Shown piece after piece: positions 7,841 to 20,801 of a stretch of 23,248 nucleotides of DNA. The notes beneath the pieces were generated by a model. That model saw only the letters and a list, made by a program, of their open reading frames with translations. It was not told the origin of the DNA and did no database searches. Each line of letters begins with the position of its first letter. Position 1 is the stretch's first letter. Origin of the DNA: a virus; the IMG/VR virus record IMGVR_UViG_3300048785_000151, positions 1 to 23,248 of that record. One strand, given 5' to 3'. The position numbers and the translations under genes were made by a program.

Positions 7841-8147
7841 GGTGCTCCCGCTCGGTCGCCCGAAGGTTTGCACCTTCGCGACAGGGCGGCGCGCTTGGTA
7901 CTTCCGGCTCAAGTCGGGCACCTATCTGATCACGATGCCGGGGACCGCCGACGGGATCCCGGGTCGGCAAGTCGGGTATGTCTTCGCCAGGGTGAGCGAG
8001 CGCAAGCTCAAGGCGACCGAGGCGGTGCCCTACGGCGTGCTCCCCTCGCGCGCTCCGAACGAGCCCGACCCCGCGCTCTATCAGGGAAACTACCGAGGCT
8101 TCGGCGCCGCCGTCGCCTCGCTCTTCGCCATCGCAGGAGGACTGTGA
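7770..8147 (+). CDS. Hypothetical 125-residue phage protein
   Basis: The start is taken as the GTG at 7770 because GGAG lies at 7759-7762 and the protein then reads MVKLPSLFQRRGAKLLQ. The open frame continues upstream but only as a shadow of the neighbour. The body is beta-rich and basic (RRAWYFRLKSGTYLITMPG, GRQVGYVFARVSERKLK), followed by a Pro-rich stretch and a hydrophobic end (GAAVASLFAIAGGL). No family recognised. The 71-nt overlap with the preceding gene is unusually long for this operon, so the start is uncertain. Confidence 0.5.
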   Translation: MVKLPSLFQRRGAKLLQAAAATPKVLPLGRPKVCTFATGRRAWYFRLKSGTYLITMPGTADGIPGRQVGYVFARVSERKLKATEAVPYGVLPSRAPNEPDPALYQGNYRGFGAAVASLFAIAGGL

Positions 8148-8148
8148 C

Positions 8149-8376
8149 ATGAAGACCGGAATCGCAATCGCGGTGGTGGCCGTGCTGATCTTTGGCACGG
8201 TGGCGACGCTGGCCGAGCTGAGCGCCAGGCCGGCCGACGCGCGGGCGGCTTGCGCTTCGGCGCCCGACCCCGACGACTGCTGGGCGAACGCCGAGGCGCG
8301 CCAGATGGCGCCGGCCCTGGCCGATCTCCAGCGCCAACAGAAGGCCGCCGAAGACCGCGCGGCGAACGGAGGCTGA
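8149..8376 (+). CDS. Small membrane-anchored or exported protein (75 residues)
   Basis: The N-terminus MKTGIAIAVVAVLIFGTVATL is a hydrophobic segment after a single lysine, followed by small residues that could form a signal peptidase site (ADARAACA). The rest is short and polar, with two cysteines eight apart (C-A-S-A-P-D-P-D-D-C) that could form a disulfide in the periplasm, and a helical Gln-rich tail. A spanin-like lysis role is possible from topology alone but not supported by position. The gene starts two bases after the previous stop. Confidence 0.6.
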   Translation: MKTGIAIAVVAVLIFGTVATLAELSARPADARAACASAPDPDDCWANAEARQMAPALADLQRQQKAAEDRAANGG

Positions 8377-8377
8377 G

Positions 8378-8728
8378 GTGGCATACCTCGCCGCTTACGA
8401 AGACCAAGACTTCGACCAGTTCCTCGAAAAGGACGTGGCCTGGATGCTGATCGGCCCCTGCTACTTCGGGGCTCTCCGCTACGTCGATCCGATCAGCCTT
8501 CGCCAGCGAGTCGTTCCCCATACCTCCTACAACTCGCCGCCGCTCTGGCGCGCCAAGGCGCTCCGCTACGGTGCTGACCGGGCGGACGAGGCGGCGACGC
8601 GGAAGGAGGGCGGACCGCAACACCCTTGGACCGCGCACGATGTCGCTCACCAGCGCCAGGACGCTGCCAGGCTCCGCGCCGACGCTGAGGCGCTTGAGGC
8701 CCAGCACGCCCAGGGGACGTGCGCATGA
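8378..8728 (+). CDS. Hypothetical 116-residue phage protein
   Basis: GTG start at 8378, one base after the upstream stop, with GGAGG just before. The N-terminal half has aromatic and acidic residues (AYEDQDFDQFLEKDVAWMLIG) and GALRYVDPISLRQRVVPHT; the C-terminal half is a long charged helix (HDVAHQRQDAARLRADAEAL). No known motif. The stop overlaps the next ATG (ATGA at 8725-8728). Confidence 0.6.
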   Translation: MAYLAAYEDQDFDQFLEKDVAWMLIGPCYFGALRYVDPISLRQRVVPHTSYNSPPLWRAKALRYGADRADEAATRKEGGPQHPWTAHDVAHQRQDAARLRADAEALEAQHAQGTCA

Positions 8729-9066
8729 TCACTCCCCCGCCCTGGCGCGTCGAGGATCGGCGGCTCACGCACCCCACCATGGGGATCAAGAGCGGCGGCG
8801 AGGGCTTGCTGATCCAGGCCCAGCACGCCGGCCCCGGCTCCTCGCGCAACGTCGCGACCGTGAACTCTTATCCGCACGAGAGCGTCGAGGACGACGCCCG
8901 GCTCCTGGCGGCGGCGCCCGAGCTCCTCGCGGCGCTGATCGAAGCCAAGCAAGAGTTGTGGCGGTCGGCGCGTGCGGACTGGACCATGGCGGACTTCAAG
9001 AATTGGGCGGTGGTCCAGCGGATCGACGCGGCCTTGGAGAAGGCGGACGGCTTGCCGCGATCCTAA
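8725..9066 (+). CDS. Hypothetical phage protein with AAAPELLAAL segment (113 residues)
   Basis: The ATG at 8725 overlaps the previous stop and has AGGGGA upstream. The protein starts MITPPPWRVEDR, then VATVNSYPHESVEDDARLLAAAPELLAALIEAKQEL. The pairing of a glycine-rich N-terminal sheet with a D-A-x-L-L-A-A-A-P-E-L-L helix is very common in small, uncharacterised phage and plasmid proteins. It ends the first plus-strand gene string: the next 87 bases are non-coding and carry regulatory repeats. Confidence 0.7.
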   Translation: MITPPPWRVEDRRLTHPTMGIKSGGEGLLIQAQHAGPGSSRNVATVNSYPHESVEDDARLLAAAPELLAALIEAKQELWRSARADWTMADFKNWAVVQRIDAALEKADGLPRS

Positions 9067-9153
9067 AAGCGGAAATATCCCCACTTTAGTCTTGCAACCG
9101 TCCGTGTTCTGGCGATGATGCCTTAGCCGCACCACCGGCTTTCGGAGACGAAC
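9067..9153 (+). promoter_or_regulatory. Intergenic promoter/leader with repeat copy 2
   Basis: A box GCGGAAATATCCCC (9069-9082) is the reverse complement, with one mismatch, of the box at 6648-6661. CTTGCA (9091-9096) and GATGAT (9114-9119) are 17 bases apart and form a plausible promoter. The 18-base repeat lies at 9122-9139 and GGAGACGA at 9144-9151, just before the ATG at 9154. Confidence 0.55.
9122..9139 (+). repeat. 18-bp leader repeat, copy 2
   Basis: CTTAGCCGCACCACCGGC, identical to 6672-6689. A shorter core GCACCACCG occurs at 20857-20865 before another plus-strand gene. Confidence 0.9.
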
Positions 9154-9321
9154 ATGCGCCGCAACAAACTCATCCACATGCGCCTATCGGTCCACGGCGC
9201 TCTGACCGCCTGCTACGTCGCCAACGGCATGTCGCCGGAGGAGGCCAGCAAGAGCGCCTTCAACGTCGTGCAGGGTATGAGCGAGGCCAAGCTGGTCCGC
9301 TACTACGAGACGGGGCGCTGA
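9154..9321 (+). CDS. Hypothetical 55-residue phage protein
   Basis: ATG preceded by GGAGACGA at 9144-9151. The protein reads MRRNKLIHMRLSVHGALTA, then YVANGMSPEEASKSAFNVV and a short tail ending YYETGR. It is helical and basic at the N-terminus; residues about 20-36 look like a helix pair that could bind nucleic acid or protein, but this is only a secondary-structure impression. First gene after a candidate promoter. Confidence 0.65.
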   Translation: MRRNKLIHMRLSVHGALTACYVANGMSPEEASKSAFNVVQGMSEAKLVRYYETGR

Positions 9322-9324
9322 GCC

Positions 9325-9507
9325 ATGAAGCCCGCCTTCACCCCTCGCCCGAACCCTCGCGGCGCGCTCCTGATCCACATGAGCGAGCGCCGCCTCTCCG
9401 CGCCGATCCGCCTCGCGCTCTCCTTCCTCGCCAGCGGCGCGGCATGGGGCGCGGTGCTGGTCCTTCTCCTGACCGTCGCGGCGGTCGCCCACACCCACGG
9501 AGGCTGA
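9325..9507 (+). CDS. Small single-pass membrane protein (60 residues)
   Basis: After a basic, proline-rich N-terminus (MKPAFTPRPNPRG) and the segment MSERRLSAPIRLAL comes a hydrophobic helix (GAAWGAVLVLLLTVAAVAH) and a short His/Gly tail. An internal ATG at residue 19 could give a shorter product. It starts three bases after the previous stop. Function unknown. Confidence 0.55.
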   Translation: MKPAFTPRPNPRGALLIHMSERRLSAPIRLALSFLASGAAWGAVLVLLLTVAAVAHTHGG

Positions 9508-9508
9508 C

Positions 9509-9898
9509 TTGGCGCTCCTCACCTTTGCGCTGGCGGAGGTGAAGGCGGAGTCCGAGGCGGTGAAAGCCGCCTCGGCTCACGCCGAGCCCTACACCGGCGA
9601 GCCCGGCCCTCCGGCCCTCTGGCTGGTCGGGGACGAAGGCGTCTACCTGATGGGGAACGACAAGGGCCGCGTGCCTGAGTGCGCGGGCGGTCGCCCCGTC
9701 GTCTATGCCAAGGAGTGCCCGCGCGGCGCCGACGAGGCCAAGCGCGAAGCCTTCGGCGGCGACGACGGCGTCGAGCCGATCCGCCTCCGCGACGTCGAGG
9801 CTTGGCTGGTCGCCGCCGAGCACCTCGGGCACACCGAGGTCGCGCTCGACCTCAAGCCCGAGTCCCTGGCGCTGGCCTTCGCGTGGTCTGAGCCATGA
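9509..9898 (+). CDS. DUF3085 family protein
   Basis: 129 residues from a TTG at 9509, with GGAGG about seven bases upstream; no better start is available. The core PALWLVGDEGVYLMGND, then RPVVYAKECPRG and REAFGGDDGVEPI, matches my memory of DUF3085, a small family from alphaproteobacterial plasmids and phages with unknown function, marked by LWLVGDxGVYLM and FGGDDGVE. The C-terminus is a helix (DVEAWLVAAEHLGHTEVALD). Its stop overlaps the start of an HTH gene (ATGA at 9895-9898). Confidence 0.8.
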   Translation: MALLTFALAEVKAESEAVKAASAHAEPYTGEPGPPALWLVGDEGVYLMGNDKGRVPECAGGRPVVYAKECPRGADEAKREAFGGDDGVEPIRLRDVEAWLVAAEHLGHTEVALDLKPESLALAFAWSEP

Positions 9899-10080
9899 CG
9901 GGCGCCGACTTCAAGGCCCTCCGCGAGCGGTTCGGGCTCACGCGCTCAGCCCTCGCCGAGGCGCTGGAGATCGACCGCAAGACCGCTCAGCGCTACGAGA
10001 GCGGGGAGCGGCCGATCCCGCGCCACATCGCCCTCGCCTGCCGCGCGCTCGAAGCCCTCGCGGCCCTATCCGATGGCTGA
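9895..10080 (+). CDS. Xre/Cro-type helix-turn-helix protein (61 residues)
   Basis: The whole protein is one HTH domain: FKALRERFGLTRSALAEALE is helix 1 plus the first HTH helix, IDRKTAQRYESGERPIP the recognition helix and the following turn, and HIALACRALEALAALSDG the last helices. A S-G-E-R-P-I-P turn like this is typical of small phage regulators. It probably binds operator DNA as a dimer; the target could be one of the repeated boxes in this window, but that is speculation. Translationally coupled to DUF3085 upstream and overlapping the next gene by 8 nt. Confidence 0.8.
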   Translation: MTGADFKALRERFGLTRSALAEALEIDRKTAQRYESGERPIPRHIALACRALEALAALSDG

Positions 10081-10267
10081 GTGGCCGATCACCGACTGGC
10101 GGCTTGAGGCCTGGATGGTCTTCGGTGGCTGGCAAATCGCCCGCGTCCGCTGGGTGATGAACAGCGACGAGGATCAAGATCAGGAACTCGAGTGGGTTCG
10201 GGACCGAACTGTTTACTTGACCCAGGCCGAGTGCGCCGCCGCAGCCCTGGCGTTCCGAGAGCCTTAA
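10073..10267 (+). CDS. Hypothetical 64-residue phage protein
   Basis: ATG inside the last codons of the HTH gene. The protein is tryptophan-rich (MAEWPITDWRLEAWMVFGGW, then ARVRWVMNSDEDQDQELEW) and ends in LTQAECAAAALAFREP. It looks like a small alpha/beta protein, with no motif I recognise. Its stop is followed by 24 bases without a clear ribosome-binding site. Confidence 0.6.
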   Translation: MAEWPITDWRLEAWMVFGGWQIARVRWVMNSDEDQDQELEWVRDRTVYLTQAECAAAALAFREP

Positions 10268-10291
10268 CGGTTCGCGCCCATCCTCTGGCGC

Positions 10292-10525
10292 ATGGACACC
10301 CCCGCGCTGCTCGCCCACCTCGCCGAGGCCCTGGCCGACGCGTTCACCTTCGAGGAGGCCGGGTGCTTCGGTCTCGCGCGCTGCAGGCGCCGGGACGCGC
10401 GCTGGCTGGCCTTCCGCCTCCACCACGCCCGGTTCTTTCCACTTGCAACACTCCCGCTGAGGGACCATCCAACGACCGCCGCCCCACCACGGGCGCAACA
10501 ACAACCCCAGGAGACGACACCATGA
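10292..10525 (+). CDS. Possible 77-residue protein, weakly supported
   Basis: From the ATG at 10292 the first 48 residues look protein-like (MDTPALLAHLAEALADAF, then EEAGCFGLARCRRRDARWL). The C-terminal third reads as Pro/Thr/Gln-rich filler and coincides with the leader elements at 10442-10518. No ribosome-binding site is visible. It may be a real gene whose end overlaps a promoter, or a remnant. Its stop overlaps the next ATG. Confidence 0.35.
   Translation: MDTPALLAHLAEALADAFTFEEAGCFGLARCRRRDARWLAFRLHHARFFPLATLPLRDHPTTAAPPRAQQQPQETTP
10442..10521 (+). promoter_or_regulatory. Candidate leader/promoter of the DUF3489 gene
   Basis: CTTGCAA (10442-10448), CCACCACGG (10484-10492) and GGAGACGAC (10510-10518) occur in the same order as in the leaders of the genes at 6705, 9154 and 20882. 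CTTGC to the CACCAC core is 43 bases here, versus 38 to 41 in the others. No good -10 is visible. Confidence 0.4.
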
Positions 10526-11079
10526 CCACCTACTCCACCCGCACCAACGCGGTCCGCGCCGCGCGCAAGGCCCTCGGCGCCGACAGGCTGTCCGACGTCC
10601 ACTTCCGCGTCACCGAGGCCAAGGGCGCGGAGCTGGCTCGCCAGGAGGGCCGCGAGGACGAGGCGGATGCGACCATTGCCAACGAGCGGCTCGAAGAGAT
10701 CGCCGCCGACCCGACGCTGCTGGTGAGCGGCGCCGAACTGGAAGCGGCACTCGCCGACCCGCTGGTGGTGGACGGCGTCCGCTTCCCCAACCTCACCCGC
10801 GCGAACGAGGCGCGGCGCCTGATTGACGAGGCGCCTTCGCGCAGCGCCGCCCCGGTCGAGGCGACCGCAGCGGCCAAGACGCCGAAGCACGCCAAGCGCG
10901 ACGAGGTCCTGGCGCTGCTCAAGCGGCCGGAGGGCGCGTCGGTGGCGGATATCCAGGCGATCACCGGCTGGCTCCCGCACACCGCGCGAGCCTTCCTCTC
11001 GGTCACCCCCAAGAAGCTCGGCCTGCAGATGACCACGGAGAAGGTCGACAAGCGGACGGTCTATCGCGTCGCCGCTTAG
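10522..11079 (+). CDS. DUF3489 domain protein
   Basis: 185 residues. The N-terminal 110 residues are helical and charged (TNAVRAARKALGADRLSDVH and on). After an Ala/Pro linker the C-terminus reads KRDEVLALLKRPEGASVADI, ITGWLPHTARAFLS, then LGLQMTTEKVDKRTVYRVAA. That C-terminal block is the DUF3489 winged-helix-like domain as I remember it (x-L-L-x-R-x-x-G-A-S/T-I-x-x-I-x-x-x-T-G-W-x-x-H-T-x-R/A-A). It is common in alphaproteobacterial phages and likely binds DNA. GGAGACGAC lies three bases before the ATG. It is the last gene of the plus-strand operon; its stop overlaps that of the convergent methyltransferase. Confidence 0.85.
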   Translation: MTTYSTRTNAVRAARKALGADRLSDVHFRVTEAKGAELARQEGREDEADATIANERLEEIAADPTLLVSGAELEAALADPLVVDGVRFPNLTRANEARRLIDEAPSRSAAPVEATAAAKTPKHAKRDEVLALLKRPEGASVADIQAITGWLPHTARAFLSVTPKKLGLQMTTEKVDKRTVYRVAA

Positions 11080-12410
11080 ACCGCCGCTGCCCGCCCCTTG
11101 GAGCCCGCCACGCCCGCCGTGGCGGGCTTCCTCGTCCTCTTGCGGGCCTTCGCCCTGGCCTGAGCGACCGCCGCGTACAAGCCGCCGCCTTGGAGCACCG
11201 CGAGCCCACCAGCGAACGCCTGCCAGCGCAGCACCGCAACGTCGCAGTATCCGGGATCCAACTCGACCGCGTAGAGCCGCCGCGCCGTCATCTCCGCCGC
11301 TATCAGCGTCGTGCCGCTGCCGAGGAAGGGGTCGTAGATCGCCTCCCCCGCGGCGGAGTTGTTGACGATCGGCCGATGCATGCACTCGACCGGCTTCTGG
11401 GTCGAGTGCCCGGTCTCGTTCTTCACCTGCCGGTCAATCTTCCAGACCGTCGACTGGTCGCGCGCACCCTGCCAGTGCCCGGTGCGCCCCTGGCGAACAG
11501 CGTACCAACAACTCTCGTGCTGGGAATGATAGTGGCCTCGGCTGATGACCAAGACGCTCTTGACCCACACGATCAGCGTCCGCGGCCCGATCCCGGTCGC
11601 CTGCAGGCTCTCAGCCACCAAGCCGCAAAAGCGATCGCCATGCCAGACGTAGGCGACGTCGCCGGGGAAAAGCGCCCAGGCCTCGCGCCAGTCGGCGCGC
11701 TCGTCGTTCAGCACCTTGCCGATCGCCGCGCCTCGGCCCCCGTTGAGCCGGGAGCCGTCGCCTCGCCTCGCTTGCTGGCGCCGGGTCGCGTCGTAGTTCA
11801 CGCCATAGGGTGGGTCGGTGACCATCAGGTTCGGCTCCGCGCCGTCCAGTAGGCGGGCGACCGTCGCGGCGTCGGTCGAATCGCCGCAGATCAGTCGGTG
11901 GTCGCCAAGGATCCAAACGTCGCCGGGCCTCGTGACTGGCCTGGCGGGCAGCGGCGGCGCCTCCGCGTCGGCCTCGGCCTCCAGATCGCGGAGGAGGCCG
12001 CGCAGGTCAACCAGCGGCAGCGCCGTCAGGGAAAGGTCGAAGCCGGCCGCGCCCAGGCCGACGATCTCAGCGCGCAGCAAGCCGAGGTCCCAGGTCGCCA
12101 GCAGCGCGGTTTGGTTGTCGCTGATCCGCAGCGCGCGCACTTGCTCCGGCGTCAGGCCGACCACGCGGACGCAGGGCACCTCGGTCATGCCGATCCGCTG
12201 CGCGACGGTGTAGCGGCCGTGGCCGGCGATGATCTCGTTCGCCTCGTCAATGATCAGCGGCTGGGTGAACCCGCTGTCGCGGATCACGCGCTCGAGGGTG
12301 ACCAGCTGCTCCTCGGAGTGGACCCTGGCGTTGGCGGCGAACGGTCGGAGGGCGCCGGTCGCGACCATCTCGACCGCTCGGCCGTGGACGGTGATTTCAC
12401 GCTCGCTCAT
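11076..12410 (-). CDS. ParB-like nuclease domain / DNA methyltransferase fusion
   Basis: 444 residues. Residues about 15-100 form a ParB N-terminal-like domain: PLIIDEANEIIAGHGRYTVA, then VRVVGLTPEQVRALRISDNQ. The catalytic half starts at VTRPGDVWILGDHRLICGD; the substrate-amine motif IV is DPPYG at 199-203 and the AdoMet motif I is DPFLGSGTT at about 360-368. That order (IV before I) is the beta class of N6-adenine/N4-cytosine methyltransferases. This ParB-MTase architecture is widespread in phages, usually without a partner nuclease, and is thought to protect phage DNA or regulate. The basic tail (ARAKARKRTRKPATA) overlaps a terminator-like hairpin. The ATG overlaps the stop of the small gene upstream. 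Confidence 0.92.
   Translation of the reverse strand: MSEREITVHGRAVEMVATGALRPFAANARVHSEEQLVTLERVIRDSGFTQPLIIDEANEIIAGHGRYTVAQRIGMTEVPCVRVVGLTPEQVRALRISDNQTALLATWDLGLLRAEIVGLGAAGFDLSLTALPLVDLRGLLRDLEAEADAEAPPLPARPVTRPGDVWILGDHRLICGDSTDAATVARLLDGAEPNLMVTDPPYGVNYDATRRQQARRGDGSRLNGGRGAAIGKVLNDERADWREAWALFPGDVAYVWHGDRFCGLVAESLQATGIGPRTLIVWVKSVLVISRGHYHSQHESCWYAVRQGRTGHWQGARDQSTVWKIDRQVKNETGHSTQKPVECMHRPIVNNSAAGEAIYDPFLGSGTTLIAAEMTARRLYAVELDPGYCDVAVLRWQAFAGGLAVLQGGGLYAAVAQARAKARKRTRKPATAGVAGSKGRAAAV
11101..11129 (+). terminator. Terminator-like hairpin for the plus-strand operon, inside the methyltransferase 3' end
   Basis: A perfect 10-bp stem pairs 11102-11111 (AGCCCGCCAC) with 11119-11128 around a 7-nt loop. 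It is followed on the plus strand by TTCCTCGTCCTCTTG. It lies 23 bases past the DUF3489 stop and within the last codons of the convergent gene. Confidence 0.6.
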
Positions 12411-13794: not shown

Positions 13795-13998
13795 TCAGAA
13801 TCTCCTCGTAACGCTGACGCCGAGTTCGGTCTTGTCGGTCCAGACGGGCTCGTCGTCATCGAGCCCCCATGTCTCCACCTCCAAGCCGGCGCGGATGGCG
13901 GCTCGGACGGCTAACTCCAGCGCCTGGGCGGCGCCGCGGATCATCTTGGCGTGGTCTTCATCGGAGAGCGCGAGCTCTTCCGTGGGAGCGGTCACCAT
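13795..13998 (-). CDS. Hypothetical 67-residue acidic protein
   Basis: MVTAPTEELALSDEDHAKMI, helical in the middle (AAQALELAVRAAIRAGLEVE), ending WTDKTELGVSVTRRF. It overlaps the end of the P-like replication gene by 7 bases, so translation is probably coupled. No recognised family. Confidence 0.6.
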   Translation of the reverse strand: MVTAPTEELALSDEDHAKMIRGAAQALELAVRAAIRAGLEVETWGLDDDEPVWTDKTELGVSVTRRF

Positions 13999-14885
13999 GG
14001 CTCAAGCACCACTTCTTCGTCGCAGATCGCCCGCGCCTCCTCGATCAGCGCAGGGTCGAGCTGATCGCCGAGGCCCGCGCTCTCCATGATCCCGACCAGC
14101 ACATCGACCGGGTGCGGCATCTCCGAAGCCTCGCGGCGCAACCGCTCCTCGGTCTGGGCCCGCGACTCGCCGTGCATCAGCGCCAGCGACTCGGCGGTGA
14201 CGTGGTGGCCTGGCGCCAGATCGCCGTGGGTGGCGCGGATCACCGGCCGCGGGCGCTCGGCGAGCCGCCGGGCCTGATCGGTGGTGAAGCCGGCCGCCAT
14301 GGTGCGCACCGCCTCTCGGTCCTCGGGCATCTTCGGGAACCGCTTGATGTGCACCGCCTCCAGTTGGAAGTCCTCGGGCTCGGAGTTTGAGCGCGCCCGC
14401 CGCGCCAGCGCCTCTAGCTCGGCGGCCCGCTCGGTCGCCCTGGCGAGCACGTTCAGCGCCCGCGCGGTCTCGGTGACGCTGGCGGTGGCGATCGCGCGAA
14501 GCTCGCCCGGCTTCGGGAGGAACCGCGCGTCTGGCCGAGCCACCCAGGCCTTGAGCCCGGCCTCGATCGCCTCGGTGCTGAGCCCCGCCAGGGCGTCGGT
14601 GTAGTCCGCCCACCAAGCCGCCCACTCGCCATCGCTCATGTCGGCCTGCGGGAACGTCGCGAGCCGCCGCCCGATCACCGCCCGCACGTCCGTCGGACTG
14701 GCTGCGGCGCGCGCCTTGGCGCGGAGGAGCGGGAGCTGCTGGCGCGCCTCCCCCAGGAGGGCCGACGAGCTGGCGATCCGCTCAACCGCGTCTTCCGCTA
14801 TCGCTGAGGTCAGGAGCGTTGAAAGCGCGGGCGAGGTTCTCGCGTCGCGCGTCGCCGGCAAGCTGGGCTTTTGATCGGTGGTCAT
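13992..14885 (-). CDS. Lambda P-like replicative helicase loader candidate
   Basis: 297 residues from the ATG at 14885, nested in the last 104 nt of the O-like gene. The central part reads ATFPQADMSDGEWAAWWADY, TDALAGLSTEAIEAGLKAWV and ARPDARFLPKPGELRAIATA. The pattern W-x-x-W-x-x-D-Y-x-x-A-L, A-I-x-x-A/G, R-F-x-P-x-P-G-E-L-R is what I associate with phage P-like proteins that load the host DnaB helicase. A long charged helix follows (RATERAAELEALARRARSNS). No Walker A motif, so it is not DnaC-like. Order on the strand (O-like then P-like) mirrors lambda. Confidence 0.65.
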   Translation of the reverse strand: MTTDQKPSLPATRDARTSPALSTLLTSAIAEDAVERIASSSALLGEARQQLPLLRAKARAAASPTDVRAVIGRRLATFPQADMSDGEWAAWWADYTDALAGLSTEAIEAGLKAWVARPDARFLPKPGELRAIATASVTETARALNVLARATERAAELEALARRARSNSEPEDFQLEAVHIKRFPKMPEDREAVRTMAAGFTTDQARRLAERPRPVIRATHGDLAPGHHVTAESLALMHGESRAQTEERLRREASEMPHPVDVLVGIMESAGLGDQLDPALIEEARAICDEEVVLEPW

Positions 14886-15915
14886 CGTGGAGGTTCCTGT
14901 AGAAGCCTTCAATCAGACGGAGGTAGCTCTTGGGCTGGAGCACGAAGTCGAGGTCGGCGCGCCAGCCTTTGTCGTTCTGGCCGGTGAGGAAGGGCGCGCC
15001 GAGCGCCAAGATCGCGTCGGGCCATGTTCCGGGGTTCTCCTTGAGGCGCGTCCGGATTTGCTTCCGGCGCTTCTCGCTGAGGGCCTTGGCGATCGGGAGG
15101 CCAAGTTCTTCAGCGCGTGCGTTGTAGGCCTCGAAGGCGCCCTCGGCGCCAATGGCGGAACCGTTAGGTTCCGACATAAGAGACTCTTCGACAGAAGAGT
15201 CTCTGTGGCTAGTGGCTAGTGGCTTACTACCATTGGGGGGGTGGGCGCCCCCTGGGCGCCCCTTAAGGGGAGGGAACTTTCTCCGTAGTTCTTCAAGGGC
15301 TTGCGGATTGAGAGGGAACCACTCTCCGACGTGCTCCGGGCGCCCCAATAGGCGCCCCAATTTGTCGTGCCACTGCTTTTCGAGGGCGCCCATGTCGTCG
15401 GTTTGGACGGCCCCAATTAGGACGATCGAGGCGTCCTTGAGCCCTCCCCGAATCTTCTGAACGCGGCGCACCGGGTCGCGACTGGCGCCCACTTTATACC
15501 AGTTGTCGGTGCTCCTCGGTCCTGCGAGGTAGACGTACCCAGGCTCGTTGTAATCGCCGCGAAGTGCTGGATTTCCTCCCTTGCGGCCGTTGGAGCGATC
15601 CCTCTCTGTCGCCTTTGCTTCGCGCACCATCCGCCGGCAATAGATGTTCCCCGCGCGATCACGGCTAAAAACGCCGTGCACCTCAAGCTCAGCGACGAGG
15701 GTGCGGAGATGATTGGACGCCACTCCGGTGATCCTGGCGAAGGCCGCCGGCGTCAGCGGCTGGCCCTTGATCCCCACGTAGCCGTAGGGGTCGTTCTGAG
15801 CCGCGACGCACAACATATCCATCCACACGCCGCGAGCGCCTTCGGAGCAGGCTCGGAGGCCCTGGTCGCTGAGCCAGTCGGGCCAAAACCACTTGGTGAA
15901 CAGTTGCCCGCTCAT
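14782..15915 (-). CDS. O-like replication initiator with an internal GIY-YIG (T5orf172/MUG113-type) domain
   Basis: 377 residues, three parts. Residues 1-115 are a winged-helix DNA-binding domain (FTKWFWPDWLSDQGLRACSE, then LTPAAFARITGVASNHLRTL) as in phage replisome organisers. Residues about 126-205 are a GIY-YIG-type domain: GYVYL (126-130), WYKVGASRDPVRR (139-151), E179 in GALEKQWH, and GEWFPL (197-202). Residues 255-345 are the C-terminal replication domain (YNARAEELGLPIAKALSEKR, then WRADLDFVLQPKSYLRLIEG). The GIY-YIG block starts just after NGRKGGNPAL, where relatives normally have a variable linker. The ATG at 15915 is coupled to a 15-codon mini-ORF. Repeats within this gene may form the origin. 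Confidence 0.8.
   Translation of the reverse strand: MSGQLFTKWFWPDWLSDQGLRACSEGARGVWMDMLCVAAQNDPYGYVGIKGQPLTPAAFARITGVASNHLRTLVAELEVHGVFSRDRAGNIYCRRMVREAKATERDRSNGRKGGNPALRGDYNEPGYVYLAGPRSTDNWYKVGASRDPVRRVQKIRGGLKDASIVLIGAVQTDDMGALEKQWHDKLGRLLGRPEHVGEWFPLNPQALEELRRKFPPLKGRPGGAHPPNGSKPLATSHRDSSVEESLMSEPNGSAIGAEGAFEAYNARAEELGLPIAKALSEKRRKQIRTRLKENPGTWPDAILALGAPFLTGQNDKGWRADLDFVLQPKSYLRLIEGFYRNLHDDHRSKAQLAGDARRENLARAFNAPDLSDSGRRG
15179..15391. other. Candidate replication origin inside the initiator gene
   Basis: A perfect 11-bp inverted repeat with a 4-nt loop lies at 15179-15204. Three tandem 7-base units follow (TGGCTAG, TGGCTAG, TGGCTTA, 15206-15226). Next come TGGGCGCCCC repeated 11 bases apart (15242-15251 and 15253-15262), the palindrome CCCCTTAAGGGG (15259-15270), GGCGCCCCAAT twice 12 bases apart (15339-15349, 15351-15361), and GGGCGCCC at 15384-15391. 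The segment at 15175-15233 is visibly richer in A/T than its surroundings. Confidence 0.4.
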
Positions 15916-16902: not shown

Positions 16903-18819
16903 TCACCACCCGCCCTCCTCGAGGAGCCACTCGATCCTGCGGCCTATGTCAGATATGACAGAGACCGCCTGGGAATTGCCCAGGGCGCGGTAGCGCGGCC
17001 CGTCGGGCGTCGCCGCCAGGACGCGGGCCTCGTTCTCGCCGTAGCCGCTCGCCAGGAGGTACTCGATTGTCTGGGCGAGGTCGGTCTCGTCGCGGTGGGC
17101 GTCGGAGTAGGGGATCAGGGTGAAGTCGTCCTCGAAGCCCTGGAGGCGCTCGCATTCTCTTGGGGTTAATCTGCGCACCGTCGTGCCGACGAATAGCACC
17201 GGGTCTTGATCGCCCTTGTCGGCGTCGGCGCTCAGCGGCGGGGACAGATCGCTCGGCGCGCCGTCCTTGTCGCGGGTGTAGTGGCTTGGCTTGAAAGCCA
17301 CGGCGACGAAGGGCTTGTCCGACCCGCCGCCTCCAGTCCGGAGCGCTGGCGCAACCTCGCCCTCCTCGGGCTCGATCACGTTCTCACCGTCCCGGCCGCG
17401 AAGGGAGAAGGCGTGCGCGATCAGGGCGCCGCTCTCGATATCAGTTGTGCGCGGCCCGGCCTGATGGGTGGTGCTGATGATCGGCGCCGAGGTGTCGGGC
17501 GCGTAGGCGATGGCTTGAGAGAAGCCGTCCGTGTCGAGCGGCTGGCAAATCTCGGACGGGCAAGGGTCCTGGCGAGCGTTGAAGGCGACGAGGAGCCCGG
17601 TCTCCGCGTCTTGGCCGGTGGCCGAGCCCGGCGTCTTGTGCCCGCCGCTCTGGAGTGCTCCCGCGACGGGAGCGACGTAGGCGATCGCGGGCGGGTGGCC
17701 CTTGTGCGCCAGCGTCGGCGCCGGGTCGCCGGCTTGCGGGTTGGAGCGGTTCTCGGGGTGGGTGATCTGCGTCGGGTCAAACGGGAGCGGCTCCTCGACC
17801 ACGAAGGTGTCGCTCTCGAAGTCCTGGCGGATGCCAGAACCCGGCTTGGCGAGGAGGCCGGCGGCTACGTCGATAGGTCCGCCGGTGCGGTTTCCTCCGA
17901 AAGCCACTCGCTGAACAGGTCGTCCGTTGGCTCCTTGAGGCCCTCCGCCGCTTCCAGCGCCGCCAGCTCCTCCTCGCTCAGCGCCGCCATCGGCCGCGCC
18001 CGGTCGCTCAGCGCTCGCGCCAGGGCCTCGGGGAGCACCTTCCCGCGGTTGACGGCTCGGCGCAGGATGCCCGCACAGGCTATCGAGGACAGGAAGTAGC
18101 GCGTCGGCAACGCGCAGCGCTCCAGCACCTCCACGAGCGAGCACGAAGACCCTCCGCCTTCGTTGGGGTAGGCCGAAGTACTGGGCGTCCAGCGAGCGCC
18201 ATGCGGCCACGCGGCGGGGTCCAGCAACCACACCCGAGCTTGTCCAGCCCCCGCGCCCTGGCGGAACGAGGGCGGATTGTGCTCCGACCATTCCCGCCAG
18301 GAAGGCGCCGAAGGCGTTGTCTTCGACGCTGAGGACTCCGGGGACGTTTTCCCAGAGGATGGCGACGGGTGGCTTTCCAGCAGCGCGTCGAAAATCGTCA
18401 ATTGCATCGGCCAGCCTCAGGAACTCGAGAGAGAGGTTTCCGCGGTCGTCGGCGAGCGAGCGCCTCAGCCCCGCGAGCGAGAAGGCCTGACAAGGCGTGC
18501 CGCCCACCAGCACGTCGGCCTCGACAATCATGGGCTCGTCGCGAAGGCGCGTGAAGTCGCCCTCGTTGGTGATCAGGGTCCCCCACTCGATCCCGTCGAG
18601 CGCGCGGATCGCGTTCCGCCGGCGGCTCGCTTCCTTCGGATCGGAGCCGTCCTCAGGCTGCGGCATGTATCGCGGCCGGCCGGCGCCGTGCCGCTGGGCA
18701 AGCACGGCCGAGGCAAAGGGGTCGATCTCGGCGTAGGCGAGCGCTTCCCACCCACGCGGCTTCCAAGCCGCCGAGGGCGCGGATATTCCGCTGCATACGC
18801 ACAGGAAGCGAACGGGCAT
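16903..18819 (-). CDS. C5-cytosine DNA methyltransferase with long repetitive variable region
   Basis: 638 residues from the ATG at 18819. Motif I FLCVCSGISAPSAAW (5-19), motif IV VLVGGTPCQAFSLAG with catalytic Cys110, motif VI ENVPGV (157-162), motif VIII QRRRRVFVLA (219-228), motif IX/X region RRLTPRECERLQGFEDDF and YRALGNSQAVSVISDIG near the C-terminus. Between VIII and IX lies an unusually long variable region (about residues 230-560) built from recurring segments such as AIAYVAPVAGAL, VAFNARQDP, AIAYAPDTSAP and VAFKPSHYTRDKDGAP, which would form the target-recognition region. Part of this gene (17865-18407) is also readable as a second gene in another frame. Confidence 0.92.
   Translation of the reverse strand: MPVRFLCVCSGISAPSAAWKPRGWEALAYAEIDPFASAVLAQRHGAGRPRYMPQPEDGSDPKEASRRRNAIRALDGIEWGTLITNEGDFTRLRDEPMIVEADVLVGGTPCQAFSLAGLRRSLADDRGNLSLEFLRLADAIDDFRRAAGKPPVAILWENVPGVLSVEDNAFGAFLAGMVGAQSALVPPGRGGWTSSGVVAGPRRVAAWRSLDAQYFGLPQRRRRVFVLARGGAGALRVADALLPVLDSLCGHPAPSRQPREGAPRGPGASAERPGAADGGAERGGAGGAGSGGGPQGANGRPVQRVAFGGNRTGGPIDVAAGLLAKPGSGIRQDFESDTFVVEEPLPFDPTQITHPENRSNPQAGDPAPTLAHKGHPPAIAYVAPVAGALQSGGHKTPGSATGQDAETGLLVAFNARQDPCPSEICQPLDTDGFSQAIAYAPDTSAPIISTTHQAGPRTTDIESGALIAHAFSLRGRDGENVIEPEEGEVAPALRTGGGGSDKPFVAVAFKPSHYTRDKDGAPSDLSPPLSADADKGDQDPVLFVGTTVRRLTPRECERLQGFEDDFTLIPYSDAHRDETDLAQTIEYLLASGYGENEARVLAATPDGPRYRALGNSQAVSVISDIGRRIEWLLEEGGW
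17865..18407 (-). CDS. Nested alternate-frame gene inside the C5 methyltransferase (180 residues)
   Basis: An ATG at 18407 with a TGAGG ribosome-binding motif opens a frame +1 relative to the methyltransferase and continues 180 codons to a TAG. It reads MQLTIFDALLESHPSPSSGK, TSPESSASKTTPSAPSW, ARVWLLDPAAWPHG, then SCSLVEVLE and PTRYFLSSIACAGILRRAVN. I know the pattern RYFLSxxACAGILRRAxxRGK with an upstream SGxTSPxSSxxxTTPS as a family of hypothetical phage proteins. The same nucleotides encode methyltransferase motifs VI and VIII in the other frame, so the region seems to be dual-coding. No catalytic motif; the SxxTSP N-terminus is disordered and the tail acidic (ALSEEELAALEAAEG). Function unknown. 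Confidence 0.65.
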   Translation of the reverse strand: MQLTIFDALLESHPSPSSGKTSPESSASKTTPSAPSWREWSEHNPPSFRQGAGAGQARVWLLDPAAWPHGARWTPSTSAYPNEGGGSSCSLVEVLERCALPTRYFLSSIACAGILRRAVNRGKVLPEALARALSDRARPMAALSEEELAALEAAEGLKEPTDDLFSEWLSEETAPADLST

Positions 18820-19409: not shown

Positions 19410-20217
19410 GCTCGCCGGCCGGCGCGGTCTGAACGTCGGGCGCCTTGTCGCCTGGCGCGATCGGCGGCTCGTCCTCGGCCTGCTCGTCTTCCTGGTCCTC
19501 GACGCCTGTCTCCTCGTCGTCGTGGTGCTCGCCGTCGCCGTCTTCGTCGTCGGGATCCCCGCCAGCGCCGGCCACTGGGGTGCGGGCTCGAGCCTCGGTT
19601 TTGGCCAGTTCCTTGATGCCCTTCCCGTTCCGCTCGGTGGCCATGTTCAGGCCGCGCTCAAAGTCCTGCAGGTGCTCGGGCGGCGGCTTCGGCATGTCGT
19701 TGGGATCGAGGCCGGCGATCCCGGCGCGGTAGCCCTCGCCCTCCCAATAGACGCCGGGCTGGACCGCCTCGGGGAGCTTGTCGAACATTTCGCCCTGAGG
19801 CCCAGCTGGCAGGCCGAAGGCTTCGCGGACGATCGCGCGCTGGACCTCCTTGCGGTCAAGGTGGACTCGGGTGGTCTTGCCGTCCTTCATGCCCTCGTCA
19901 AAGAGGGCCAGCGGCATACCGGCGGTCTCGACGGCGGCGCGGATCACTTTCCGATCCGCCTTGAGCTCCTTCACCTTGTCGGCCAGCACAGAGATGGCTT
20001 GGTCGATCTTGGTCTGCTTCGAGCGGAGCCCGATGAGTTGGAGCTGGAGCGCCTCGCGGAGCGCCTTTTCCTGGGCGGGCCCGCTGGGCTTGCCGCGCAA
20101 GCCGGCGCGGCCGACCGGAATCTGCGGCTTCACCTTCCCCGCCGCCGCCCTGGGCCTGCTCTTCCCGGCGCCGCGCGCCGCTCGCGTGGGTAGGGTGGTC
20201 ACGTTGTCACCGGCCAT
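19399..20217 (-). CDS. Coiled-coil, acidic-tailed phage protein of unknown function (272 residues)
   Basis: Residues 1-48 are basic and disordered (RAARGAGKSRPRAAAGKVK). Residues about 50-100 form a long helix (ALREALQLQLIGLRSKQTKI, then SVLADKVKELKADRKVIRAA). A globular part follows (VQRAIVREAFGLPAGPQGEM, GVYWEGEGYRAGIAG), and residues about 215-255 are strongly acidic (PDDEDGDGEHHDDEETGVED). A basic N-terminus with an acidic C-terminus suggests an ssDNA-binding or DNA-mimic accessory factor, but I recognise no family. Its ATG overlaps the TAA of the HNH-HTH gene by one base, so the two are coupled. Confidence 0.65.
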   Translation of the reverse strand: MAGDNVTTLPTRAARGAGKSRPRAAAGKVKPQIPVGRAGLRGKPSGPAQEKALREALQLQLIGLRSKQTKIDQAISVLADKVKELKADRKVIRAAVETAGMPLALFDEGMKDGKTTRVHLDRKEVQRAIVREAFGLPAGPQGEMFDKLPEAVQPGVYWEGEGYRAGIAGLDPNDMPKPPPEHLQDFERGLNMATERNGKGIKELAKTEARARTPVAGAGGDPDDEDGDGEHHDDEETGVEDQEDEQAEDEPPIAPGDKAPDVQTAPAGELVN

Positions 20218-20801
20218 TATTCCGTCTCCGGGCGCTCAGGGGTGGCCCAACCCTCTTTACTAAACTCCGCGAGTGCCTCAATCCGGCGCTCCAACTCTTT
20301 GTCCAGCACGCGTCGCATTGTAGTCAGCACGGCGGCTGACGGCGAGCGCTTCCCGGAGCGATATCGCGAGAACGTCGGCTCGGACATCCCTGACAGTTCT
20401 GCAAGCCGCGCTGACGAGACGCCGATAAGAAGTCGGCGGTCTTCGACCTCGACCATAATGGAGACGACCGCGCATCGGAGGCTCCGGACGACACCGTTTT
20501 GCCGGTCGTCGGCGTGCTGGTCTTTGCGCGTGCCCCAGGCCAAGTTATCAGGCCTATCGACCATGTGTCGGCCGTTGAGGTGCCTCACCTCCAGCCCCTC
20601 GCGCGGCGGTTCGCCGTGGAAGGCCAGACACACCGCTCGCGCGACCAGCATTCTAACCTTATGGCCCTCATCGTCCTTGAGGGTCACCGCTAGATATGGC
20701 CCTTGCGGGGTTCTGGTAACGGGCGTAGCCCCTATCCGCACTTGCCCGTCATCAGACGCTTCGTAAGGCGCGAAGCCTGGAATCTCTCGCCACTCAGCCA
20801 T
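20217..20801 (-). CDS. NUMOD4/HNH endonuclease fused to a Cro/CI-type HTH domain
   Basis: 194 residues from the ATG at 20801; the open frame continues far upstream but only opposite plus-strand genes. The N-terminus EWREIPGFAPYEASDDGQVR is the NUMOD4 pattern. Residues about 52-103 are HNH-like: LVARAVCLAFHGEPPREGLE, VRHLNGRHMVDRPDNLAWGT, with H74, N76 and N86 in the usual places. The C-terminal 75 residues are an Xre-type HTH: VSSARLAELSGMSEPTFSRY, then RSGKRSPSAAVLTTM. An internal ATG at residue 116 (20456) falls just before the HTH and could mark a former separate repressor start. It is the first gene of the minus-strand early operon, facing a divergent region with a dyad. Confidence 0.8.
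   Translation of the reverse strand: MAEWREIPGFAPYEASDDGQVRIGATPVTRTPQGPYLAVTLKDDEGHKVRMLVARAVCLAFHGEPPREGLEVRHLNGRHMVDRPDNLAWGTRKDQHADDRQNGVVRSLRCAVVSIMVEVEDRRLLIGVSSARLAELSGMSEPTFSRYRSGKRSPSAAVLTTMRRVLDKELERRIEALAEFSKEGWATPERPETE

Follow-up and report, generated by a model that had tools for sequence, protein, structure and literature searches.

The stretch of viral DNA analysed here, referred to as the window, is a 23,248-base IMG/VR virus record that encodes a terminase (nearest to those of Erythrobacter and Rhizobium phages, with about 45% identity), a portal protein and several methyltransferases. It also carries a replication initiator gene with an internal GIY-YIG domain (Table 1). 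The gene downstream of the initiator gene (13992-14867, minus strand) overlaps its end and matches phrog_10105 at E 0.005, giving no confident family. Elsewhere in the window, all on the minus strand, are found: a 185-aa protein (20217-20774) with an HNH_3 nuclease (E 7e-7) and an HTH_3 domain (E 8e-6), which resembles a homing endonuclease; a DNA methyltransferase fused to a ParB-like domain (11076-12410; phrog_498, E 3e-124); and a 632-aa DNA methyltransferase (16903-18801) in which a 279-position profile stretch is matched over 624 residues and which therefore contains a long insert.

Table 1. Features of the initiator locus in window coordinates.
Feature	Position	Strand	Basis or remark
Gene for the 377-aa replication initiator containing the GIY-YIG domain	14782..15915	minus	
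N-terminal winged-helix domain, residues 1-118, conserved GGNPAL motif at its end	15562..15915	minus	Pam1 gp56 identity; AlphaFold2
Left junction, GGNPAL codons	15562..15579	minus	point identical in all 14 carriers
GIY-YIG (T5orf172/MUG113) domain, residues 119-213; Tyr129, Arg151, Glu179, GEWF	15277..15561	minus	Pfam, motifs, AlphaFold2
Two GGCGCCCCAAT repeats in 3' part of domain coding DNA	15338..15361	minus	encode LGRLLGRP, missing in other carriers
Two further GGCGCCCC repeats and CCCCTTAAGGGG palindrome directly past domain	15243..15267	minus	candidate origin elements
Linker inverted repeat, perfect 11-nt arms around a 4-nt loop	15179..15204	.	possible origin element
C-terminal O-like replication domain, residues 232-343	14887..15222	minus	phrog_345, 'replication initiation O-like' (PHROGs), E 3e-16

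Domains of the initiator and state of the nuclease fold

The N-domain shares 40% identity with its counterpart in Pseudanabaena phage Pam1 gp56, whose gene directly follows a helicase gene. In an AlphaFold2 model built from a 23-row alignment, pLDDT exceeds 90 for most residues of the N-domain and the GIY-YIG domain; the linker and a portion of the C-domain score low. This N-domain model aligned best (VIA-align) to 4pql, 4pt7, 5kbj and 4pta over 79-82 residues, with rmsd 2.6-2.7 and Z 7.1-7.9; as these Z values lie under the safe level of 8, and CRP-type winged helices score only slightly lower (Z 7.0 and less), the likeness to plasmid initiators is tentative. The PDB titles of these entries read "initiator" or "Rep-DNA complex", and presumably all four are RepA_N plasmid proteins. 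A Pfam search of the window protein gave no RepA_N match in the N-domain.

The initial annotation had placed a GIY-YIG domain at 15279-15558 (residues 120-212, minus strand), between a winged-helix N-domain and the replication domain of an O-like initiator, and this layout was borne out. Two Pfam models match above their cut-offs, MUG113 at residues 140-210 (E 1.9e-5; 25.6 bits against 22.3) and T5orf172 at residues 126-213 (E 7.5e-5; 23.6 bits against 20), and the protein carries the motifs as claimed: GYVY (126-129), YKVG, the arginine, the glutamate within EKQWH, and GEWF. In the full-length model, pLDDT ranges from 75 to 95 by block over residues 121-210, and the domain modelled alone has a mean of 88.6. 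The eight solved chains aligning best to this isolated model are all GIY-YIG proteins (Slx1, I-TevI, UPF0213), at Z values of only 3.8-4.8; Foldseek found no PDB match at E ≤ 0.001 for either model.

The tyrosine of the first motif, the arginine and the glutamate are conserved in all 14 distinct carriers of the domain described below, and the second tyrosine, that of YIG, is present only in the window and L090. Its absence from the other 12, together with the UniProt titles that call T5orf172 a DNA-binding domain, could mean that the insert does not cut at all and serves the initiator as an additional DNA-binding or spacing module. The co-evolution of domain and N-domain in one pair of carriers (L092 and L096) would also fit this. 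Between these two, dS is 0.87 for the domain and 0.86 for the N-domain, so the two parts travel together there; the domain, with a dN/dS of 0.062/0.866, is under purifying selection. However, the catalytic arginine and glutamate are kept throughout, and DNA cutting is reported for Odn (PMC8263062), a T5orf172 protein in which a different conserved residue is missing. We therefore consider a non-cutting module unlikely; the inserted domain is probably an active nuclease that the N-domain takes to origin DNA.

A fixed insertion site and a scattered distribution

Carriers were collected by several routes. In a first scan, the N-domain retrieved 100 relatives; 80 of these were kept, and a motif expression identified the domain in three of the 80 loci (L008 and L013, with identical proteins, and L050). 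A second scan gave at least 577 relatives, and the best 80 of these included two carriers, both already known. Scanning with the domain region yielded 10 loci, and a junction DNA pattern yielded 26 viral stretches (nine being contigs already known) plus 23 from bacterial genomes. Removal of copies from the same virus or nearly identical ones (L008, L013, L089, L050, L202, L093, L094, L110, L121, L157 and re-fetched contigs) left 14 distinct carriers: the window, L088, L090, L091, L092, L095, L096, L097, L104, L111, L113, L115, L120 and L129, the last located in the chromosome of Hymenobacter sp. YC55. Viral contigs scanned with the whole window protein gave no relative, and genome contigs scanned with the domain region gave none. 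Among cellular genomes, the domain occurred in one of 385 from the class of a Rhizobiales MAG, where by reading the match is not in an initiator, and in one of 200 from the Hymenobacter family, which is L129 itself. The carriers have C-domains of several kinds (phrog_345, 678, 3992/1408 and 9327/270), and the N-domain of L097 is a DUF1376 (E 1e-26). Each carrier record, many being fragments, has a single match to the domain; 13 have a single match to the N-domain and the L097 record has none.

In all 14 carriers the domain begins at GG[NS]P-x-[LVIF]-3 residues-YN. The GGNP motif belongs to the N-domain and is found at the expected place in 119 of 158 domain-less genes, every one of the 119 reading GG.PxL. 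At least one domain-less gene homologous on both flanks was found for ten carriers (the window, L088, L090, L091, L092, L096, L097, L104, L111 and L115), the match for L097 being Acetobacter phage phiAX1; among the relatives collected, none was found for L095, L113, L120 or L129. Flank identities (N-domain and C-part, respectively) are 47% and 42% for the window against L023, 40% and 43% for the window against L059, 73% and 78% for L096 against L052, and 80% and 45% for L090 against L011. At the junction, the window has GGNPA-LRGDYN...FPP-LKGR and L023 has GGNPA-LKRG. Thus, the GIY-YIG domain is a clean, in-frame insertion at a fixed codon of the initiator linker, with both flanks conserved as initially proposed, and related initiators without it argue against a segment ancestral to all relatives. 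Neither this outcome nor the other one named as refuting in the initial annotation, the lack of a GIY-YIG match with catalytic residues, was observed. At the DNA level, L096 and L052 are 88% identical in the C-part and 66% in the N-domain, and hence a larger module (N-domain, insert and linker) differs between them, not the insert alone.

On an N-domain tree of 107 rows with 13 carriers (L097 could not be aligned and was left out), the carriers require eight changes, at least five of them forced by well-supported branches, and a single carrier clade is rejected (p-AU 3.7e-11). L104 and L113 share 70% identity in the domain and 43% in the N-domain; N-domains reject a clade of these two (p 1e-5), and domains reject one of L104 and L129 (p 0.04, from a weak tree of 76 columns). 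The domain has therefore been exchanged between N-domain backgrounds at least once, and related phages have repeatedly gained or lost it, always at one position. At the same time, identities between distinct carriers average 46% for the domain and 43% for the N-domain and correlate with each other (Spearman 0.46, 78 pairs), so much of the history of the two parts is shared.

The initial annotation had suggested a homing element that landed in a tolerant linker and became permanent there. The first half of this suggestion agrees with the scatter of the domain and with its having changed background at least once; permanence need not be assumed, as carriers are interspersed with non-carriers in groups of close relatives (L090 is placed among the domain-less L009-L012). 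A purely selfish version, in which cleavage of the empty GGNPxL site drives the spread of a domain that brings the phage no benefit, would account for the codon fixed in 14 of 14 carriers, the clean empty sites and the scatter. It appears quite improbable to us, as no recent transfer between diverged phages was seen at the DNA level in the few pairs compared, and as one restricted scan for copies beginning YN-x-P-G outside initiators found none (a TAC/AAC-restricted pattern returned 35 stretches, 33 of them non-GIY-YIG by reading and two known carriers).

Repeats within the initiator gene

Across 78 domain-less genes from the second scan, copies of AAGGTTA/TAACCTT number 155 in N-domain DNA (3.1 expected), 140 in the 150 nt that follow GGNP (3.6 expected) and one further on (2.3 expected), amounting to 295 against 6.7 expected over N-domain and linker DNA; AAGGTTAACCTT repeats occur in GGNP-type phages. 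Two or more GG[AT]TAA half-sites are present in the linker (150 nt after GGNP) of 39 of 41 and 74 of 78, that is 113 of 119, domain-less genes, a count that covers genes bearing GGNP and excludes 39 without it. These arrays suggest that the origin of GGNP-type initiators probably lies within the initiator gene. The origin of lambda likewise lies within its initiator gene.

No carrier has two or more such half-sites within 250 nt after the domain (0 of 14). This contrast with domain-less genes is confounded by kinship, and a different set of repeats is present in the window. GGCGCCCC occurs at 15244, 15255, 15339 and 15351, four times in 115 bp, and is the sole 8-mer of the window with four same-strand copies in 120 bp, any such 8-mer arising in one of 200 shuffles; its window-wide total is ordinary (7 against 6.4 expected). 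Two of the four copies are inside the domain coding DNA, at residues that are extra in the window protein. GGCGCCC has six copies in the window gene against a shuffled maximum of 4. Among other carriers, AAGGTGA is found in L092, L111 and L115, and AAGGGTA in L104, L113 and L129, with counts that nowhere exceed the shuffled maximum beyond the range of chance. A CTTAAG palindrome lies 25-80 nt past the domain in 12 of the 14 carriers, its distance in these being 36-60 nt, and is also present in 30 of 119 domain-less linkers. From these sequence features, placement of the GIY-YIG domain at a putative intragenic origin is probable.

Such a placement could also mean, in line with the other alternative in the initial annotation, that the initiator acts on itself, its GIY-YIG domain nicking or opening its own origin at or near the CCTTAAGG palindrome or the GGCGCCCC repeats in place of the usual melting at multiple iterons. 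The absence of the usual half-site array from every carrier, the palindrome shortly past the domain in most of them, and the single copy of the domain per record, with a single N-domain match in 13, would agree with this, as would the inverted repeats of the GTGGACGTCCAC type, read by eye, about 48 nt past the domain of a Myxococcus phage Mx8 protein discussed below. On the other hand, the domain is rare and scattered and hence dispensable in close relatives, we know of no GIY-YIG enzyme that is an initiator, and the palindrome may just mark the border between folded domain and origin DNA. A self-acting initiator therefore seems rather unlikely.

Known relatives and a proposed mechanism

Our search of the open-licence PMC literature (titles and abstract openings) found no published description of a GIY-YIG domain lying within a complete initiator, so the earlier statement that such nucleases are not known inside an O-like initiator holds to that extent; it must be softened in view of Odn and Mx8 p19. 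Odn (origin-directed nuclease, gp88) of Vibrio phage ICP1 requires iterons and cuts the origin of a rival (PMC8263062), and related proteins occur in phages Inny, Muut and Mt1B1_P17 (PMC10448857). Odn and the window protein both join an initiator-type DNA-binding domain to a T5orf172 GIY-YIG domain with the arginine and glutamate kept, and both would be expected to target origin repeats. Odn, however, is a small effector of two domains, its DNA-binding part imitating the initiator of another element, whereas the window nuclease is inside what appears to be an initiator that belongs to the phage itself and is complete, C-terminal replication domain included. Compared with the RepA_N domain of the Odn type, the window N-domain has no Pfam match, only the structural alignment with Rep initiators of plasmids (Z 7.1-7.9). 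In the L113 region 8010-11192, the carrier initiator, which has no C-domain, was considered as an Odn-like two-domain effector and dropped; the genes after it look, from their translations, like those of a DEAD-type helicase and a primase, and it is therefore probably still the initiator.

Mx8 p19 (AAK94354.1; L262 9248-10426) matches phrog_8130 over its length (E 1.7e-195), with a MUG113/T5orf172 domain (E 3.8e-13), an N-domain that matches initiator families, and a C-tail. It is labelled only p19 or "replication initiation protein" (NC_003085), its nuclease domain being unannotated, and its gene adjoins a DnaC-like gene. Thus, a cultured phage has the same layout as the window, although with an N-domain of another family and without the GGNPxL-YN junction. 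In Mx8 p19, palindromic GTGGACGTCCAC-type repeats start about 48 nt past the GEWF codons. The N-domain of p19 is shared by phrog_5718, named HNH endonuclease, a possible HNH counterpart of the initiator-nuclease fusion; its members were found in none of 150 genomes. A Bordetella phage "HNH endonuclease" with an Mx8-type N-domain was rejected as such a counterpart, as Pfam finds no HNH in it and the name looks like annotation carry-over.

With lambda O-type initiators (phrog_345), the window protein shares the C-domain match and the intragenic repeats between domains, but it adds the GIY-YIG insert and has an N-domain of the Pam1 gp56 kind. With GIY-YIG homing endonucleases (I-TevI and phage T5orf172 HEGs), it shares the catalytic fold and motifs, a separate DNA-binding module and clean empty sites, the insert being missing in close relatives with flanks kept for 10 of the 14 carriers. 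Yet it is not free-standing, has no intron, intein or splicing, and is in frame in an essential-type gene.

We judge the initiator with its insert to be an initiator-guided, origin-directed nuclease with a logic close to that of ICP1 Odn, and here we infer four things: the cutting, its target, the self-protection and the identity of the repeats as the origin. In the reading that we prefer, with a probability of roughly 0.4, the origin-binding initiator cuts the origins of rivals or empty alleles in trans, enabling exclusion and homing while its own allele is spared. A working initiator, with an origin-binding winged helix and an O-like C-domain, would have acquired an intact GIY-YIG domain as an in-frame, unspliced linker insert. 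Binding of the N-domain to origin repeats within its own gene would deliver the nuclease to origin DNA, and the nuclease would cut, in trans, the origins of co-infecting or resident related phages with the insert-less allele. The rival would then be excluded and the insert-bearing module copied in (homing). The phage's own allele may escape, the distance from binding site to cutting site being altered there by the insert and the different repeat pattern. Action on rival or empty origins is favoured since the domain is rare, optional and mobile, and since Odn, a protein of like logic, cuts origins in an iteron-dependent way (PMC8263062). Several points speak against it: there is no sign of a recent sweep, the domain being about as alike as the N-domain between distinct carriers; and the initiator has to bind its own origin and so could be expected to cut it. 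The joint travel of domain and N-domain in L092 and L096, the influence of kinship on the repeat contrast, the window's own repeats, the CTTAAG copies in domain-less linkers and the retention of the second tyrosine in just two carriers also count on this side.

More tentative, and doubtful at present, is the idea of the initiator as its own homing and exclusion weapon, in which the insert, aimed by the origin-binding domain, would attack rivals' origins from within the same locus and would protect its own origin through altered repeats and spacing around the insertion point; nuclease-armed and unarmed initiators would then compete as alleles at one origin locus. The pairs of carrier and non-carrier alleles (L096/L052, L092/L198, L090/L011 and window/L023), together with cultured Mx8, offer direct material for testing origin cutting, homing and replicon exclusion. 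If the proposal is true, nuclease domains would be built into the replication initiator itself and not carried as separate genes.
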